Both the position numbers and the translations under genes were made by a program. The notes under the pieces were generated by a model. The model worked only from the letters and a program-made list of their open reading frames with translations. It was not told the DNA's origin and did not search any database. Positions 8,204 to 53,880 of a stretch of 64,000 nucleotides of DNA are shown piece by piece. The stretch comes from Magnetococcales bacterium. GTDB taxonomy: Bacteria > Pseudomonadota > Magnetococcia > Magnetococcales > JADFZT01. The stretch is from the NCBI GenBank assembly GCA_015232395.1, contig JADFZT010000001.1, forward strand, positions 25,744-89,743, written 5' to 3'. Within the stretch, counting starts at the first letter, position 1, and the number at the start of each line of letters is the position of its first letter.

Positions 8204-10483
8204 TCAACCTTCTTCCTGGGGCACGCCAGGCTTGAGTAGCTTTTGGTAAAGCGCCCCGTAAGCCGCGATGGCGGCGTCGAATGAATAGTGCTTTTCGATG
8301 GTTCGGCGGGCTGCCCGCCCCATTTTTTGCCGTAGTTCAGGCTCTACAATCAACCGCTCCACCGCCTCGGCAAAGGCGCCCACATCCCCCGGTGGGGTGA
8401 GAAAGCCGTTGATGCCATCCTCTACCAACTCCGAAACCTGATCCACATCCGTCGCCACCACCGGCTTGCCACAGGCCATGGGTTCGATGAGGGAGTTGGG
8501 GATGCCTTCGTTAAAAGGGTCGCTGGCGCACAGCCCGATATCAAACCCTTTGGCCAGTGCCAGGGGTTGCTCGGAGCGGCCGGTAAAGTGCACTCCCTCT
8601 CCCAAAGGCGCTGCCTGCTGACGAAGGAGCCCCTCCACCCCCACCGCCCCAGCCAGCTGGGAATCCTCCCCCGCCAAAATCAACCGCAGGGGATAACCCC
8701 TCTGTAAAAGGGTATCGGCTACTTCGATCAAAAGATCCAGTCGTTTACCGTGACCAAAACGGGAACAGCGCCCCATGACGATCTTTTCTGCCGGTGCCAG
8801 GCGTTGGGCGACAACGCGATCCACCTCCCCCAAGTCCACCGCATTATGGACCACCTGGATGGGTACCTTGGGCCAAAATTGGCGGATGTAGGGGGCTGTT
8901 CCGGCGGCGGAAACAATCACCTGATCGAAATCATGCTTGGAGACCGAGCAGCAACTGCGAGTACCATCCGTGCGCTCGATGATGCGGGGCACCCCAGCGG
9001 CCTTGGCGGCATCCACAGGCCAGCGATTGTTGGCCACCTGGATGAGATCGATCCGATGTCGACGCAGATAGCGCACCAGAGAGCCAAATGTGGGGGTATA
9101 CGCGAAGCGGCCCAGCTCATCGCACTGGGGGGCGTGGGCTTGAAGGTGTGTGGCGATAAAGTGAAATTCATATTGGGGCAGCGCCCGGGCCAGGCGAAAC
9201 ATCCAGGAGGCGATCCCCCCCAGATTCCAATCCCAGAGGGTCAGGGCGATGCGGCGGCGGGGGGTGGAAGCGGGACTGGGGCTGAGAGTGGCATCAAGCC
9301 CCCCCCGAGTGTTGCCCGGCTCTTCAGCGGTGATCCTTCTTCGGGTCAGGGGGTGCAAAAGCTTTCCCGTCAGTCGCACCGCGCCATATTTCCAGCCCCG
9401 CTCCGGACCAAAGGGGGGGAGCCCCAAAGCTTGGAGATATTTCGGAGCCAGCTGATCCATGCTGCAGACCTGCTCGGCACGAGCCCGGGCCTTTTGGCGA
9501 AAGCGGGTTAAATCCCCCAAAACTTCCGTCACCCCCGCCGCCATCCCGGCGCGCAGCGCTTCCCCATAGATCCCCCCCGGATCATCCACCGCCACGCCGC
9601 CAGCCCTGGCATCAGCGCCGATGCCAGCTCCCACCAGCTCCGCCGAGCCGCCTTCCAAAGGACACACCACCGGCACCCCACAAGCGAGGGCTTCCACCAC
9701 CACATTGGGGCAGGAGTCCGCAGCAACGGTGTGGAGCAATAGGTCCATCTGCTGATAGTGGCTCACCAGCTCCGAGGGGGGTACGGAAGGGACGTGGCGG
9801 ATCAGCCCCTGCCAGGAGGGATCCGCTGAGGCCTCATCCAGCACCTTTTGGCAAAAATGATCCAGGGAGCCGACGATCAGCAAACGGGGACGCACGGGCA
9901 GGCGTCTGGCCACATCAAAAAAAACTTCCAGTCGGGGGCGATAGCGCATGGAGCCGACGGTGCCCAGTACGGGGGGGTCGTTGGTGGATCGATGATTTTG
10001 AGGAGCGGGCTTGAACAGGCGCAGGGGGGTGGCGTTGGGGATGATCTCCCAGGTGCCGGGGGGACGCTGATGGAGAGAGTCCAGATGCGCCTTGGAAAAG
10101 CGGCTCTGATAGATGACAAAGTCGGCCCGCTCCAGGGCGTTACGGATGCGTTCGTTGGCGGCGGCAAAGGCGGGGAGAAATTCGCGATCGCCAAAAACTT
10201 CTGCCAGGCGATTGAAGTGCCCTTCCAAAAACATCCCCGCCACCCGATAGACCACCTGCCGGGGGGCATCGAACAGGCGCTCCTGTTGGGGGTGGTAGAT
10301 GTTGAGGAGGCAGGGTTGGTGGTTGGCAAGGAGGGGCAGGGGCCGGGCCTGGTAGCGCCGTTCCCGGGCGTTATCGATGAACCGCCGCACCATCACTTGG
10401 GGGCCACCCCGGGTGCGGGGCCAGGGGGCGACGGCAAAGGCGGGAGCCAGGGGGCGATCAGAGGTAAAGGTATCGTCAGGCAT
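8204..10483 (-). CDS. bifunctional glycosyltransferase, two GT-B modules fused
   Basis: 759 residues, about twice the usual glycosyltransferase length. Module 1 covers about residues 15-355; its donor site is near SCPNVVVEALACGVPVVCPL (residues 257-276). Module 2 begins near residue 410 (RRIALTLWDWNLGGIASWMF) and has a canonical GT4 site, EGIPNSLIEPMACGKPVVAT. The two are joined by a Ser/Pro-rich linker around residues 385-410. Fusions of this kind add two successive sugars or act processively. Module 1 lacks an obvious N-terminal Gly-rich loop and has a degenerate acceptor half, so it may be less active or have a structural role. Confidence 0.82.
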   Translation of the reverse strand: MPDDTFTSDRPLAPAFAVAPWPRTRGGPQVMVRRFIDNARERRYQARPLPLLANHQPCLLNIYHPQQERLFDAPRQVVYRVAGMFLEGHFNRLAEVFGDREFLPAFAAANERIRNALERADFVIYQSRFSKAHLDSLHQRPPGTWEIIPNATPLRLFKPAPQNHRSTNDPPVLGTVGSMRYRPRLEVFFDVARRLPVRPRLLIVGSLDHFCQKVLDEASADPSWQGLIRHVPSVPPSELVSHYQQMDLLLHTVAADSCPNVVVEALACGVPVVCPLEGGSAELVGAGIGADARAGGVAVDDPGGIYGEALRAGMAAGVTEVLGDLTRFRQKARARAEQVCSMDQLAPKYLQALGLPPFGPERGWKYGAVRLTGKLLHPLTRRRITAEEPGNTRGGLDATLSPSPASTPRRRIALTLWDWNLGGIASWMFRLARALPQYEFHFIATHLQAHAPQCDELGRFAYTPTFGSLVRYLRRHRIDLIQVANNRWPVDAAKAAGVPRIIERTDGTRSCCSVSKHDFDQVIVSAAGTAPYIRQFWPKVPIQVVHNAVDLGEVDRVVAQRLAPAEKIVMGRCSRFGHGKRLDLLIEVADTLLQRGYPLRLILAGEDSQLAGAVGVEGLLRQQAAPLGEGVHFTGRSEQPLALAKGFDIGLCASDPFNEGIPNSLIEPMACGKPVVATDVDQVSELVEDGINGFLTPPGDVGAFAEAVERLIVEPELRQKMGRAARRTIEKHYSFDAAIAAYGALYQKLLKPGVPQEEG

Positions 10484-13504: not shown

Positions 13505-14734
13505 TCAGGGGTGGCGGGTTTCCTGGATGAGGCGGTGCCAGGCATCCAGGGCTTGGGGGCGGTCGAAACGGGCATCGAAAAGGGCTCGGGCGGCTTGGCC
13601 CATCCGTACGCGCTCTCCTTGGTCATCTGCCAGTTTTATAATTTCATCCGCCAGGGCCTGGGCCGCACCAATAGAGACCGTGCGACCACAATCAGCCCCC
13701 TCGATCAATCGGGCAATCTCTCCCTGATGATCCCCCACAAAAAGCACCGGGCGGCCTGCGGCGGCGATACCATAAAATTTGCTCGGTACAATCAAGCCTT
13801 CCATATCGGGCAAAAGGGAAATCCAATGGGCATCCGCCACCCCCAGGCTCAACGGCAGCCGCTCCCGGGGTTGGTAGGGCTGAAAGCGAACCCCCGACAG
13901 CTTTTTCCGTGCCACTTCCCCCTGCAACCGGGCAATCCCCGCCCCCCCGCCGATAAAAAGGAAGAGAATATCCCCACGCTCCCGCAAAATTTCCGCTGCC
14001 CCCAGCAGGGTATCGAACTCGTGGACCCGGCCCAGATTGCCCGAATAGCCCACCACAAAACGCTCCCGAAATCCCCACTCTTTCCGGAGGGGATTGGCAG
14101 CAGCTGGAATGGGGGTGATGGAACGCCCATCGGACCAGTTGTGGATGATGCGGATCCGCTCTTTGGCGACCCCCTCCCCTTGCAGCCGTTCGGCCATGCG
14201 CTCTCCCAATGCGACATTCAGGCGTGCCGTTTTGAGGGAAAGATTGCGTTTGAGTTTCATCAGGAAGGCAAGGGGCCCCCGGATGCCTTTCACCTTGAGG
14301 GCCACCGCCACCTCGGGAAAGAGATCCTGAACCCAGTTGATCAGCCGGAGTCGCTTCAGCCAGACCACCGGCAGGGCGGTGACGGAGATCAACGGCGGGT
14401 CGGTCTTGGCCACCACCACATCCCCCTGGCAGCTGATGCGAAAGAGCAGCCAGAGTGCCCCCAGATGGAAGGTGAGATAGTCGATGGCCCGCCCCGGCAG
14501 AAAGTGGCGGCCAAAGCGGCTGGTGGTAACCCGGTGGACCTCGACCCCCTGAAGGCTCTCCCGGGGGAGGAGTTTGGCTTCCGGGTCGTCATAGCGGAGG
14601 CGGCTGGTGATGACCGCCACCGGGATCCCCCGCTGCACCAGATCGAAAGCCAGGTCGCTCAAAAGTTGGCTCGTCGCCGAATGGTCGGGATAAAAAAAGC
14701 GGTTGAGAAAAATCACCTTCCCGGAAAAATCCAT
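13505..14734 (-). CDS. WcaI/WbuB-like family 4 glycosyltransferase, candidate fucosyltransferase
   Basis: The reading frame is open up to 14923, but the ATG at 14734 gives a natural N-terminus (KVIFLNRFFYPDHSATSQLL) and a 409-residue protein, the usual size. Hallmarks of the WbuB/WcaI group are INWVQDLFPEVAVALKVKGI, FVVGYSGNLGRVHEFDTLL and GLIVPSKFYGIAAAGRPVLF. WcaI uses GDP-fucose in colanic acid synthesis. GDP-fucose enzymes gmd and fcl lie 2.5 kb away, so a fucosyl transfer role is a reasonable inference. It is the first gene of the minus-strand sugar operon. No strong ribosome site is visible before the ATG. Confidence 0.8.
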   Translation of the reverse strand: MDFSGKVIFLNRFFYPDHSATSQLLSDLAFDLVQRGIPVAVITSRLRYDDPEAKLLPRESLQGVEVHRVTTSRFGRHFLPGRAIDYLTFHLGALWLLFRISCQGDVVVAKTDPPLISVTALPVVWLKRLRLINWVQDLFPEVAVALKVKGIRGPLAFLMKLKRNLSLKTARLNVALGERMAERLQGEGVAKERIRIIHNWSDGRSITPIPAAANPLRKEWGFRERFVVGYSGNLGRVHEFDTLLGAAEILRERGDILFLFIGGGAGIARLQGEVARKKLSGVRFQPYQPRERLPLSLGVADAHWISLLPDMEGLIVPSKFYGIAAAGRPVLFVGDHQGEIARLIEGADCGRTVSIGAAQALADEIIKLADDQGERVRMGQAARALFDARFDRPQALDAWHRLIQETRHP

Positions 14735-15317
14735 GGCGATCCAAAGGGATAAAGGTGGAATGAACCCGGAATGACACCGGAAAAACGGAAGATCAGTCGA
14801 GAGTAACCATCTGCCCCCCAAAAGGCAATCAAAGGGGCGTGGCAAAAGGATTTTTCGTCGAATGCCCAGGTCTGAACGGGAGGAGATTACAGGGAAAAAA
14901 CAACCAAAACATTCTTCTGGCAAATAGCATCTATTTTATCAGAAAATCCTGATGGACACCGTCACGGCCTGATTTTGTTGAATTTTATTCCAACAATGCC
15001 ACCAAAAAAAAATAACAATGAATCTTGCGAATGGTTGCTATTCGTACGATGATGATTTTTTAATGATATTTTTGACTGCTTGGATCCTCTTCTGCTTGGG
15101 CGAAACGATCTGGAATTCATAATGTAACATAAAAGTTCATAAGATTAACAGACTGTAACGCCACCCCCTAATTTTGCAAATTCTGCGATAAAACCTTTTC
15201 ATCCTTGAGTGGTTTTTTCATCATACTCCCATTGCTTAACAGGCAGGGGGGCTTGAATGGACAGGGTAAAACAGGACCAAGAATCAATCACAGTAACGAC
15301 TTAGCCAAAACCGGCCC
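14735..15317. other. AT-rich intergenic region between divergent transcription units
   Basis: About 580 bases without a convincing gene. It is clearly richer in A/T than its surroundings between 14920 and 15250. It should hold the promoter of the polysaccharide operon (leftward) and that of the cytochrome gene (rightward). An imperfect inverted repeat is visible around 14977-14999 (TTGTTG...CAACAA). At 15144-15158 TTAACAGACTGTAAC resembles the TTAACA-N3-TGTTAA palindrome found upstream of the TonB-dependent receptor at 34022. I cannot place -35/-10 boxes with confidence. Confidence 0.5.
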
Positions 15318-16826
15318 ATGGACACCCCCTTGACCAGCGATCCCTACAACTCTGCCAGCCCCGTATCCGCGTTTGTGGATGACATGGAGCATGGTAAGCA
15401 GGCGGGTCAAAAAGCGGATGCTGGCATTGTCCTGGCCCTGGAAAACCATCTTAAAAAACAGGGAAAAAACTTCAAGACCGCCAGCCGGGAGGATCTCCAC
15501 GGCTTCATGGTGCTGTTGGCCACCAGGCTACCAAAAGAAGGGGTTCTCAAGCACACAGTCGTTCTCATCGATTTTTTCTTCGCCCTGCAAGAACACGGCA
15601 TGCTCTCCTCCTCCTCCAACCTCATGGCAGATCTCTATGCCATCGTGGTGGCGGGAGGGACTATTCCCGACCTGAAATCCACCGATGCCCTGGGAGAAAC
15701 CCTCTCGGAATTCGATGAAGAGGCCCACGCCCGCCGGGAAGGTGAACAGCCGGACCCCAACGGCCAAGGCTCTTCCCAGACCCAGGCTAACGGCTACCCC
15801 CAAGAGACCGCCCCCCCACGAGCAGGAGAATCCTCCAGCCGGAATGAACCAGACCTTCACGGGCTGGGGGAGAGGGGCGGGGAGGCCGAATCAGCTGGCA
15901 ACGGTGATCCCAGAAGAGAGCCTGAATTCGTTCATGTGGAAGAGGAACGACGCAATCAGGAGCGGCGGCACAACGATCGCCGAGGGGGTTATCGCCGCAA
16001 CATCGATACCGCACCGATTCTGGACAAATCAGCCCACATGGCAGGCTTCGACAAGCGGGGGCAGATGTCGGGCATGGGACGGATGGGCCATGGCAGCAAC
16101 GGCGTATTGGCGGGCAACCCCGATGGGATGTCCATTCTTCCTCCCGGGGCAGCCCCACCCCACATGAGCAAAGGCCGCACACCCCACGCCGTCCACACGC
16201 CCCATGGCGGTCCAGGTCACGCCCCACCCCCCAACAAAGGCTACTCCACTTTTCAACCGGCCCCACCCCTGGAAAAAAAATCCGGCAAATTCAACCCCTA
16301 TTGGCTTTTTGGCCTGGCCCTCATCGGGATTGTTTTTTACTGGTTCAGCTCCGGCCCCACCAACGGCACTGCCAAGGAAGGGGGGCTGGATCGGCTGAAA
16401 AATGTTTTTATGGCCGATGAAACCGCTCTGCCGGGAGATGAAGGCATGTCGGTGCGCAAGGCTTATTTCAGCAAACATGTCCTCACCGAAAAATCCAACG
16501 CCCGGGGGGGACAGCTCCCTGTACTCTCCAACCCCGTCGCCCGCAGCTGGGACAACATTCACGACGGTCGCACCGTTTACGACAAATATTGCGGTGAGTG
16601 CCACGGTACCCAGGGGCTTGGTGGTGGCGCCCTGGCCGCAAGCCTCAACACCCGCCCCCCCAGCCTTAAATTTGCCGGGGACGGCCTGCTGCACAAGGCG
16701 GAATATCTCTTCTGGACCATCAGCGAGGGAGGTGAAAAGTTCAGCACCGACATGCCCTCTTTCCAGGGGGTGCTCACCGAACAGGAAATCTGGAAAGTGA
16801 TTCTTTTCCTGGGCACTGTCGGCTGA
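15318..16826 (+). CDS. membrane cytochrome c with long cytoplasmic N-terminal region
   Basis: 502 residues with a rare order of parts. Residues 1-120 form a helical soluble domain without signal peptide. Residues ~130-325 are low complexity, rich in Pro, Gly, His and charged residues, including an Arg-rich RRNQERRHNDRRGGYRR. One membrane helix lies at ~327-345 (YWLFGLALIGIVFYWFSS). The periplasmic C-terminus is a class I cytochrome c with CGECH at 425-429 and a Met ligand in TDMPSFQG near 479. The N-terminal ~120 residues match no family I recognise. By topology the protein could link cytoplasmic partners to periplasmic electron transfer. The start has no strong ribosome site. Confidence 0.72.
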   Translation: MDTPLTSDPYNSASPVSAFVDDMEHGKQAGQKADAGIVLALENHLKKQGKNFKTASREDLHGFMVLLATRLPKEGVLKHTVVLIDFFFALQEHGMLSSSSNLMADLYAIVVAGGTIPDLKSTDALGETLSEFDEEAHARREGEQPDPNGQGSSQTQANGYPQETAPPRAGESSSRNEPDLHGLGERGGEAESAGNGDPRREPEFVHVEEERRNQERRHNDRRGGYRRNIDTAPILDKSAHMAGFDKRGQMSGMGRMGHGSNGVLAGNPDGMSILPPGAAPPHMSKGRTPHAVHTPHGGPGHAPPPNKGYSTFQPAPPLEKKSGKFNPYWLFGLALIGIVFYWFSSGPTNGTAKEGGLDRLKNVFMADETALPGDEGMSVRKAYFSKHVLTEKSNARGGQLPVLSNPVARSWDNIHDGRTVYDKYCGECHGTQGLGGGALAASLNTRPPSLKFAGDGLLHKAEYLFWTISEGGEKFSTDMPSFQGVLTEQEIWKVILFLGTVG

Positions 16827-16934: not shown

Positions 16935-17176
16935 TATAGCCATTCGAATCAAGAATTGGACATATGCCGTTGCACTTTTGCCGTCACTCCCGCGAATGCG
17001 GGAATCCAGGGGGGCTGGCACGGACCTTTCCAAATCTTGTTTCACTTTCAGCAAAATGCCGGCCTCTCTGAAGATTTGGCTTTTCCTTGAGGGCCATGAT
17101 TATCTCCCTGGATCCCCGCCTTCGCGGGGATGACGAATCAGGGAGGAGTGTCCAATTCTTAGGTAAGCCTGCTATA
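16935..17176. repeat. MITE-like element, copy A (242 bp)
   Basis: The element begins TATAGCCATTCGAATCAAG and ends with GCTATA. Read in reverse complement, the right end (TATAGCAGGCTTACCTAAG, then AATTGGACAC) matches the left end as an imperfect terminal inverted repeat of ~30 bp. Inside are two dRS3-like palindromes, TCCCGCGAATGCGGGA and ATCCCCGCCTTCGCGGGGAT. It encodes no protein. Near-identical copies lie at 40627-40869 and 53639-53880. The TATA ends suggest TA target duplication, as in Correia-like elements and Tc1/IS630-type MITEs (inference). Confidence 0.85.
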
Positions 17177-17282: not shown

Positions 17283-18374
17283 TTGCCAAAGAAAGCCTTG
17301 ATCACCGGCATCACCGGTCAGGATGGGGCCTATCTTGCGGAATTTTTGATTGGCAAGGGGTATGAGGTCCACGGGGTCAAACGGCGGGTGTCATCCTTCA
17401 ACACCGCCCGGCTCAACCACCTCTACCAGGATCCCCACATTGAGGCGCGCAATTTTATCCTCCACTATGGGGATCTCACCGACGCCACCAATCTGATTCG
17501 CATCATCCAAAACGTCCAACCCGACGAAATCTATAATCTGGCGGCCCAAAGCCACGTGGCGGTCTCCTTCGATACCCCGGAATTTACCGCCGATACCAAC
17601 GCCCTGGGCTCCTTGCGGATATTGGAAGCCATTCGGATTCTCGGTCTGGAAAAAAAGACCCGCTTTTATCAAGCCTCCACCTCGGAGCTTTTCGGCAAGG
17701 TGGTGGAGACCCCCCAGCGGGAGACCACCCCCTTCTATCCCCGCTCCCCCTATGGGGTGGCCAAGCTCTATGCCTACTGGATCACCGTCAACTATCGGGA
17801 AGCCTATGGCATGTATGCCTGCAACGGGATTTTGTTCAACCATGAATCCCCGGTGCGGGGTGAAACGTTCGTCACCCGCAAGGTGACCCGAGCCCTGGCC
17901 CGCATCAAAACCGGGCTTCAGGAGTGCCTCTATCTCGGCAACATGGACGCCAAGCGGGATTGGGGTCACGCCCGGGATTATGTGGAGATGCAGTGGTTGA
18001 TGTTGCAGCAGGAGGAGCCGGACGATTTTGTGATCGCCACCGGGGTGCAACATTCGGTACGGGAGTTTGTCGAAATCGCTGCTCAAAAGCTCGACATGGC
18101 CATCACCTGGCAAGGGGAGGGGGTTGAGGAAGAGGGCATCGATACCGCTACGGGGCGAAAAATCGTCGCGGTGGATCCCCGCTATTTTCGCCCCACCGAG
18201 GTAGAAACCCTGCTGGGGGATCCCACCAAGGCCCGGGAAAAACTGGGCTGGGTTCCCAAAATCACCTTTGCCCGGATGGTGGAGGAAATGGCGCAAGCGG
18301 ATCTACAGGATGCCGAGCGGGATGCTTTGGTGATGCGCCGGGGTTACAAGGTCAACGAAGTCCACCATGAGTGA
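17283..18374 (+). CDS. gmd: GDP-mannose 4,6-dehydratase
   Basis: 363 residues, the family length. It converts GDP-D-mannose to GDP-4-keto-6-deoxymannose in the cytoplasm. The extended SDR fold shows [18 protein letters not shown] (NAD(P) site), [26 protein letters not shown] and the catalytic [17 protein letters not shown] with Tyr-xxx-Lys. The start is a TTG: an in-frame TGA lies 15 bases upstream, overlapping a GAGGGGAAA ribosome site, and the protein begins [14 protein letters not shown] as in the family. It is followed by fcl, giving the two-step GDP-L-fucose pathway. Confidence 0.95.
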
Positions 18375-18433: not shown

Positions 18434-19384
18434 ATGAGCGTGAAGGATCAAAACGCCAAAATATTCATCGCCGGCCATCGGGGCCTGGTGGGATCTGCCA
18501 TTGTCCGGCGGTTGCGGCAGGCGGGTTGTGACAACCTTCTGCTAAAAAGTCGGAAGGAACTCGATCTCACCAGCCAGAGTGCGGTGGATCGGTTTTTTGA
18601 AACTGAACGCCCTGATCAACTCTATCTGGCAGCGGCCAAGGTGGGGGGAATTCACGCCAACTCCACCTATCCTGCGGATTTTATCCGGGACAATCTCCTC
18701 ATCCAGACCCTCCTGATCGATGGTGCCCGGCGTTTCGGGGTTGGCAAGCTGCTCTTTTTGGGCTCCTCCTGCATCTATCCCCGCAACGCCCCCCAGCCCA
18801 TGCCCGAATCGGCCCTGCTCACCGGCGCTTTCGAGCCGACCAACGAATGGTATGCCATCGCCAAAATAGCCGGGATCAAGCTCTGTCAAAGCTATCGAAG
18901 GCAGTATGGCTTTGATGCCATCTCCCTGATGCCCACCAATCTGTATGGTCCCGGGGATCATTTTCATCTGGAAAATGCCCATGTGCTGCCCGCCTTGATG
19001 CGCCGCTTCCACGAGGCCAAACAACAAGGCCTGCCTGAAGTGTCGGTCTGGGGCAGCGGCACCCCCCGGCGGGAATTTTTGCATGTGGATGATCTGGCGG
19101 ATGCGGCGGTTTATCTCATGGAAAACTACAGCGACGAGGGAATCGTCAATGTCGGCACCGGTGAGGAGGTGACCATCCGCCAGCTGGCTGAAAGCGTTCG
19201 GGAGGTGGTGGGCTATGAAGGCCGCCTCACCTTCGACAGCAGCAAACCCGACGGCATGCCCCGCAAGCTGTTGGATGTAAGCCGCTTGACCGAACTGGGC
19301 TGGCAGGCCAAAACCCCGTTACACGCTGGCTTGGCGTCTACCTACGCCTGGTTTCTCGACCACCAGGAGGCGTTTCGGACATAA
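18434..19384 (+). CDS. fcl: GDP-L-fucose synthase
   Basis: 316 residues. The epimerase-reductase turns the Gmd product into GDP-L-fucose with NADPH. Seen: [19 protein letters not shown] (cofactor loop), [40 protein letters not shown], and catalytic [15 protein letters not shown] with Tyr and Lys. It begins 60 bases after gmd and is probably co-transcribed. GDP-fucose made here most likely feeds the WcaI-like glycosyltransferase at 13505-14734, although that locus is read from the opposite strand. Also known as wcaG. Confidence 0.94.
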
Positions 19385-40631: not shown

Positions 40632-40869
40632 CCATTCGAATCAAAAATTGGACATATGCCGTTGCACTTTTTTCGGTCATTCCCGCGAATGCGGGAATCC
40701 AGGGGGGCTGGCACGAAACCTTCCAAACCTTGCTTCACTTTCAACAAAATACCGACCTTGCTGAAGATTTGGTTTTTCCTTGAGGGTTATGATTATCTCT
40801 CTGGATCCCCGCCTTCGCGGGGATGACGAGTCAGAGAAGAGTGTCTAATTCTGAGGTAGGCCTACTATA
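40627..40869. repeat. MITE-like element, copy B (243 bp), between exbB and exbD
   Basis: Same element as at 16935: starts TATAGCCATTCGAATCAA, carries the two internal dRS3-like palindromes (TTCCCGCGAATGCGGGAA and ATCCCCGCCTTCGCGGGGAT), ends GGCCTACTATA. The exbB stop codon TAG (40629-40631) is inside its left tip, and the exbD ribosome site AGGAG lies just past its right end. The element splits what is usually a tight gene pair. Confidence 0.85.
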
Positions 40870-53638: not shown

Positions 53639-53880
53639 TATAACCATTCGAATCAAGAATTGGACACATGCCGTTGCACTTTTTTCGTCATTCCCGCGAA
53701 TGCGGGAATCCAGGGTGTCTGGCACAAACCTTTCCAAATCTTGTTTCACTTTCAGCAAAACAGCAGCCTTGCTGAAGATTTTGTTTTTCCTTGAGAGCCA
53801 TGATTATCTCTCTGGACCCCCGCCTTCGCGGGGATGACGAGTCAGAGAAGAGTGTCCAATTCTGAAGTAGACCTGCTATA
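53639..53880. repeat. MITE-like element, copy C (242 bp)
   Basis: Same length and layout as copy A; left tip TATAACCATTCGAATCAAG and right tip AGACCTGCTATA. It interrupts the ~38-base direct repeat noted in this region. Internal palindromes TTCCCGCGAATGCGGGAA and CCCCCGCCTTCGCGGGGA are intact. Confidence 0.85.

Follow-up and report, generated by a model that had tools for sequence, protein, structure and literature searches.

A family of membrane cytochromes c in Magnetococcales with exchangeable cytoplasmic modules, one of them predicted to be a recombinase core-binding domain

We report that a 64,000-nucleotide stretch of a Magnetococcales genome (hereafter the window) encodes a tailed cytochrome c that belongs to a family of membrane cytochromes with an exchangeable cytoplasmic module, an architecture that we regard as near certain. 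Residues ~30-111 of the window protein are predicted, from profile comparisons and structural models, to be the core-binding domain of tyrosine recombinases, and within the family the type of module follows the genomic context. The explanation that we favour, which is plausible but still somewhat short of probable, is that the module serves as an adaptor for docking or dimerisation and would couple the redox state or the electrons of the cytochrome to a specific partner, here the polysaccharide machinery. Features of the window are listed in Table 1.

Table 1. The tailed cytochrome c gene, its predicted domains and motifs, and its neighbours (positions in the window)
Feature	Residues	Positions	Strand	Basis
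Double glycosyltransferase (group 1)		8204-10483	-	search
Glycosyltransferase (family 4 / group 1), divergent neighbour		13505-14923	-	search
Intergenic region, 394 bp, AT-rich (39% GC), cytochrome gene to divergent glycosyltransferase gene		14924-15317		composition
Tailed cytochrome c gene	502 aa	15318-16826	+	ORF, coding-like composition
Predicted tyrosine-recombinase core-binding (SAM-like) domain, without catalytic domain	~30-111	15405-15650	+	profiles, model, Foldseek
Asp85 codon, acidic in all aligned members, mostly Arg in XerC/D	85	15570-15572	+	alignment
Low-complexity Pro/Gly/Arg/His linker	143-326	15744-16295	+	composition
ERR-ERR-DRR run, family-recurring motif	210-222	15945-15983	+	motif count
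Single membrane helix	~328-345	16299-16352	+	strongest hydrophobic stretch
Periplasmic cytochrome c domain	413-501	16554-16820	+	PF13442/PF00034
Haem attachment motif CGECH	425-429	16590-16604	+	sequence
Met479, invariant, presumed distal haem ligand	479	16752-16754	+	family comparison
Probable GDP-mannose 4,6-dehydratase		17283-18374	+	named by eye
Probable GDP-fucose synthase		18434-19384	+	named by eye

The first ATG of the frame was taken as the putative start codon. Third-position GC is 0.62-0.73 along the ORF compared with 0.68-0.73 in the neighbouring genes, and since the two agree the entire frame looks coding; a scan for promoters and terminators gave nothing above chance. The sole Pfam match on the 502-residue protein was PF13442 (residues 413-498, 47.6 bits with a cut-off of 27), such that both the ORF and the haem domain with its CGECH motif agree with the initial annotation. 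The protein has the CXXCH motif, a domain above the curated cut-off and the distal Met of a class I cytochrome c, and haem attachment is predicted; the ligand role of Met479 we take from general knowledge of this class. CcoP, subunit III of the cbb3 oxidase, was rejected as an assignment (TIGR00782 gave 12.1 bits against a cut-off of 179.95, and there is one CXXCH where two are expected), and a gas sensor was dropped given that the Met ligand position is invariant.

The membrane helix of the window protein is weaker than those of its relatives (19-residue mean of 1.45 vs 1.8-2.7). Lys and Arg immediately preceding the helix outnumber those following it in 13 of the 14 family sequences aligned; in the window protein the count is equal at 3:3. 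The N-terminus is nevertheless predicted to be inside, and this is well supported because REC and hemerythrin domains, which are known cytoplasmic domains, sit in the tail position in relatives. Hydrophobicity, the Lys/Arg bias in relatives and the REC and hemerythrin tails therefore bear out the earlier claim that the haem domain lies beyond the only membrane helix and that a large tail is cytoplasmic. The accompanying view that a large cytoplasmic part is abnormal for such cytochromes holds outside the Magnetococcales, but within this order there is a tailed family.

Using the haem domain as query, 48 Magnetococcales genomes were searched, with genes in the other genomes called as simple ORFs. 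We found 24 clear members, of which 16 carry a core-binding tail, three a REC domain, one a bacteriohemerythrin domain (G043, L142:2617-3702, minus strand, joined via the membrane helix to the family cytochrome c) and one a degenerate tail, while three are untailed. The fusion seen in the window hence recurs in relatives, with 21 tailed members, 16 of them of the core-binding type. The tailed form was absent from about 350 other genomes of the phylum, and in the scan of 399 genomes of the phylum open frames of >300 aa were limited to Magnetococcales, the four matches outside having frames of 202-283 aa. Short PF13442 cytochromes c of other bacteria with the motif YLFWTIxEGG have a haem domain homologous to that of the window protein, but their frames are about 144-283 aa and include no large cytoplasmic domain; some are located beside heavy-metal genes (judged by eye). 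All three REC domains retain, as judged by eye, the acidic pair, the phospho-acceptor Asp, the Thr/Ser and the Lys. In the haem-domain tree the hemerythrin form falls inside a core-binding clade, a placement that is strongly supported, and at least three changes of the core-binding label are required on supported branches; support for the positions of the REC forms is weak. A Cys pair located ~36 and 28 residues N-terminal to the haem motif is present in 19 of the 21 tailed members and missing in the three untailed members, the window protein and its likely sister, G013:C85. The missing Cys pair marks the window protein, which has a long linker, as a divergent family member; it sits on a long branch (1.15), and the sister (support 81/76), which is from another family, shares the same departures. 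A search of the open-access literature for REC-cytochrome, hemerythrin-cytochrome or membrane core-binding fusions returned nothing relevant.

The window gene is placed between glycosyltransferase genes and nucleotide-sugar genes (the latter, like some other neighbours, named by eye), and ~20 kb upstream on the same contig, outside the window, are genes for an outer-membrane barrel, an SLBB export protein, a Wzc-type tyrosine autokinase, a VpsP-like protein and an O-antigen ligase/polymerase. In four other genomes (G026, G040, G041 and G042) the cytochrome gene ends, or is within a few genes of, a homologous polysaccharide cluster, and there it runs in the same direction as the polysaccharide genes instead of diverging from them. 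When all query proteins were taken from the present genome, polysaccharide genes were found within 10 kb of 9/15 loci of the core-binding, hemerythrin or degenerate type vs 1/20 control regions (Fisher p 6e-4, which is optimistic because the loci are partly related). The count was 7/15 once the nucleotide-sugar enzymes were dropped together with another glycosyltransferase query, and 10/15 vs 3/20 when two queries from a tested locus were included; among the core-binding loci no polysaccharide gene was detected near those of G013 and G036, both G028 loci and one G039 locus. Two of the three REC forms, each in a different genome, are encoded beside a hybrid histidine kinase and a stand-alone receiver.

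Other observations concern the surroundings of these genes. On contig C2 of the present genome a BLUF gene (L136:7631-8056, plus strand) is upstream of, and on the same strand as, a REC-type paralogue (8914-10075, plus strand), the stretch between them being partly masked, and on contig C30 (L135) an untailed paralogue lies upstream of what by eye is an apparent periplasmic nitrate reductase (nap) operon. In two genomes the gene for a secreted-looking Ala-rich repeat protein of about 280-320 aa and no clear family (L133:4179-5018, L154:8744-9586 and L138:901-1866) adjoins that of the cytochrome; in the present genome it adjoins the polysaccharide cluster. The window also has three copies of a repeat of 154 bp overall (16982-17135, 40675-40828 and 53686-53839), the ends of which, CCCGCxTTCGCGGGxATGACG, are in opposite orientation at constant spacing (six matches vs 0.04 expected); it resembles a small dispersed MITE-like element, and one copy is just downstream of the cytochrome gene.

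These data bear on whether the module does more than hold the protein in place. The invariant Met suggests an ordinary electron carrier, for which signalling is not required, and a plain periplasmic carrier with a core-binding domain that just clusters or positions it, with no coupling to the cytoplasm, would also fit a His/Met-type cytochrome with PF13442 above cut-off, the existence of untailed members (one of them, on C30, by the nap-like genes) and the short, tailless relatives outside the order. It is, however, hard to see REC and hemerythrin, which are signalling and sensing domains in the same position, as inert anchors, and the module type tracks genomic context; we consider such a carrier somewhat doubtful, and a coupling adaptor the better account of the family.

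The N-terminal domain escaped detection with the window protein alone: a single-sequence search with residues 1-142 gave no Pfam or NCBIfam match, showing that such searches miss the core-binding domain, and scanning the named genomes with peptides from this protein alone turned up no relative. The tails of relatives in the same order gave weak but repeated matches to phage-integrase SAM-like domains (best E 5e-4, under the curated cut-off). An hhalign comparison of an eight-tail alignment with one of XerC/D core-binding domains gave a probability of 96.9%, compared with at most 1.3% for the controls (20 column-shuffled alignments, one reversed alignment and the cytochrome alignment); we rely on these controls since the alignments are shallow and pairwise hhalign E-values lack database calibration. 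Across the 48 genomes the tail profile also picked up genuine Xer-type recombinases at lower scores, and a profile search of PDB sequences gave Cre at an E of about 1.2, which is not significant alone. The AlphaFold2 model of the window tail has a mean pLDDT of 73 with a core of about 85 (residues 30-110), and that of one relative's tail 83. Using Foldseek against the PDB, the leading matches were Cre, XerA, lambda Int and Tn1549 Int with modest best E-values (0.05 and 0.17); the first 29 matches of the window tail were recombinases or integrases except for match 27, the phage DNA-binding protein SroF, and for the relative's tail all 50 among the matches listed were of these classes. The helical N-terminal domain proposed from the initial reading is thus real in the model, and rather than belonging to no known family it is predicted by hhalign and Foldseek to be a core-binding domain.

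Both in fold and in sequence profile the tail is like the core-binding domain of Cre, XerC/D and lambda Int (PF02899/PF13495), but the window protein differs from tyrosine recombinases in having no catalytic domain, in having lost the basic third helix and in being a membrane protein with a cytochrome. No Phage_integrase match to the catalytic domain (Arg-Lys-His-Arg-His/Trp-Tyr) was found, and the core-binding domain is followed by linker, helix and cytochrome. The core-binding helices of Cre and Xer recombinases grip DNA, and the third is presumably among them. Its mean net charge in the aligned core is +5.1 in XerC/D (ARKxSAxRRFF) and -0.5 in the cytochrome tails, and an Arg position of XerC/D is Asp in 8/8 tails; summed over the entire domain, net charge fails to tell tails from XerC/D, and only the third helix distinguishes them. 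The profile further finds the domain, often doubled, in Magnetococcales membrane proteins that begin with a zinc ribbon and end in MORN or ankyrin repeats (hhalign 98.9% against the cytochrome tails), in which the third-helix charge is -0.7 and the same position is Asp/Glu in 9/9. Examples of these proteins (L180:8069-9904, minus strand; L184:5197-7317, plus strand; and L091) have a zinc ribbon, two core-binding-like domains, a probable membrane helix, a low-complexity stretch and MORN or ankyrin repeats, and their neighbourhoods do not have the look of polysaccharide clusters.

With no catalytic domain and no charge on the basic third helix, DNA binding is probably not kept: binding of DNA by the tail appears unlikely and protein docking more likely, so that the domain is a known one whose standard function has probably been lost. 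A charge-neutral helix is by itself no proof of a protein interface.

The linker, with 16 Arg, 10 His, 23 Pro and 28 Gly among 184 residues, was fairly described as Arg/His/Pro-rich, but the His residues are not conserved in relatives; metal binding via His runs is unsupported, and a His-rich metal site was dropped as a candidate. The Arg-rich runs are real: three (D/E)RR within 60 residues occur in five family members vs 0/317 other proteins called around the loci, namely in the linkers of the window protein and G013:C85 and at the N-termini in L007, L009 and the L151 gene.

A membrane-bound one-component regulator, in which the haem redox state would set binding of the core-binding domain to DNA near the polysaccharide genes, could draw on a DNA-binding fold, an Arg-rich linker and a gene that diverges from a glycosyltransferase gene across an AT-rich gap. 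There is also precedent for reuse of the recombinase fold without recombination in MrpR, the repressor of phage SPbeta, which still binds DNA (PMC10516654). However, MrpR keeps both domains and DNA binding, whereas the window protein has the core-binding domain alone, with the basic helix lost and no catalytic-domain half to close the clamp on DNA; in the four other genomes the gene shares the orientation of the polysaccharide genes, and we regard such a regulator as improbable. As to ToxR/CadC-type regulators, no Pfam winged-helix match was obtained, the module having the core-binding fold. It is more improbable still that the gene is a decaying, degenerate copy whose tail is a relic and whose function is gone, as might be read from the long branch, the missing Cys pair, the weak membrane helix, an insertion close to the Asn-Pro conserved in the core-binding domain and a truncated module in the G040 relative, because the 502-codon frame is intact and coding-like, the haem motif and Met are retained and the sister from another family has the same departures.

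Returning to the adaptor, DcrA, GSU0582 and GSU0935 combine periplasmic c-type haem, a membrane helix and a cytoplasmic signalling part (PMC8396549), and are a precedent for periplasmic c-haem signalling across the membrane. They have the haem in a PAS-like fold with a chemotaxis transducer inside, whereas the present family has a cytochrome c fold (PF13442/PF00034, with no PAS-like periplasmic domain) and a core-binding, REC or hemerythrin module. A cytoplasmic signalling domain across one helix is present in the REC and hemerythrin relatives; for the core-binding module signalling is a proposal. In the Geobacter xap locus, extracellular multihaem cytochromes are reportedly held by polysaccharide; the genetic link between cytochrome and exopolysaccharide is shared, but the window protein differs in being a single-haem protein of the inner membrane.

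In the computed layout of the family the haem domain is periplasmic, followed inward by one membrane helix and the exchangeable module. According to the adaptor explanation, the lone core-binding domain would hold the cytochrome at a cytoplasmic or inner-membrane partner, for the window protein presumably the envelope or exopolysaccharide machinery encoded around the gene, and that machinery would be coupled to changes in the redox state of the haem or to the electrons that the haem supplies. With a phosphorelay as partner the module would be a receiver, and in one relative it is the oxygen-binding hemerythrin. The phospho-signalling and oxygen-binding modules of the relatives suggest a family that links redox events outside to machinery inside, and tethering and redox sensing, both raised in the initial annotation, remain sensible ideas. 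The more extended proposal, in which one periplasmic cytochrome is plugged by module swap into different systems and the core-binding plug, turned from holding DNA to docking onto protein, gives redox control of envelope-polysaccharide assembly, is offered as speculation that we hold to be rather unlikely as a whole.

If true, this would put the recombinase core-binding domain to a new use, away from DNA and at the membrane, common to the zinc-ribbon/MORN and ankyrin proteins. It would likewise be a new way of arranging a protein that senses or uses periplasmic electrons, one cytochrome carrying interchangeable core-binding, REC or hemerythrin modules. Through its association with polysaccharide genes the family offers a link between respiration and construction of the envelope in Magnetococcales that can be tested.
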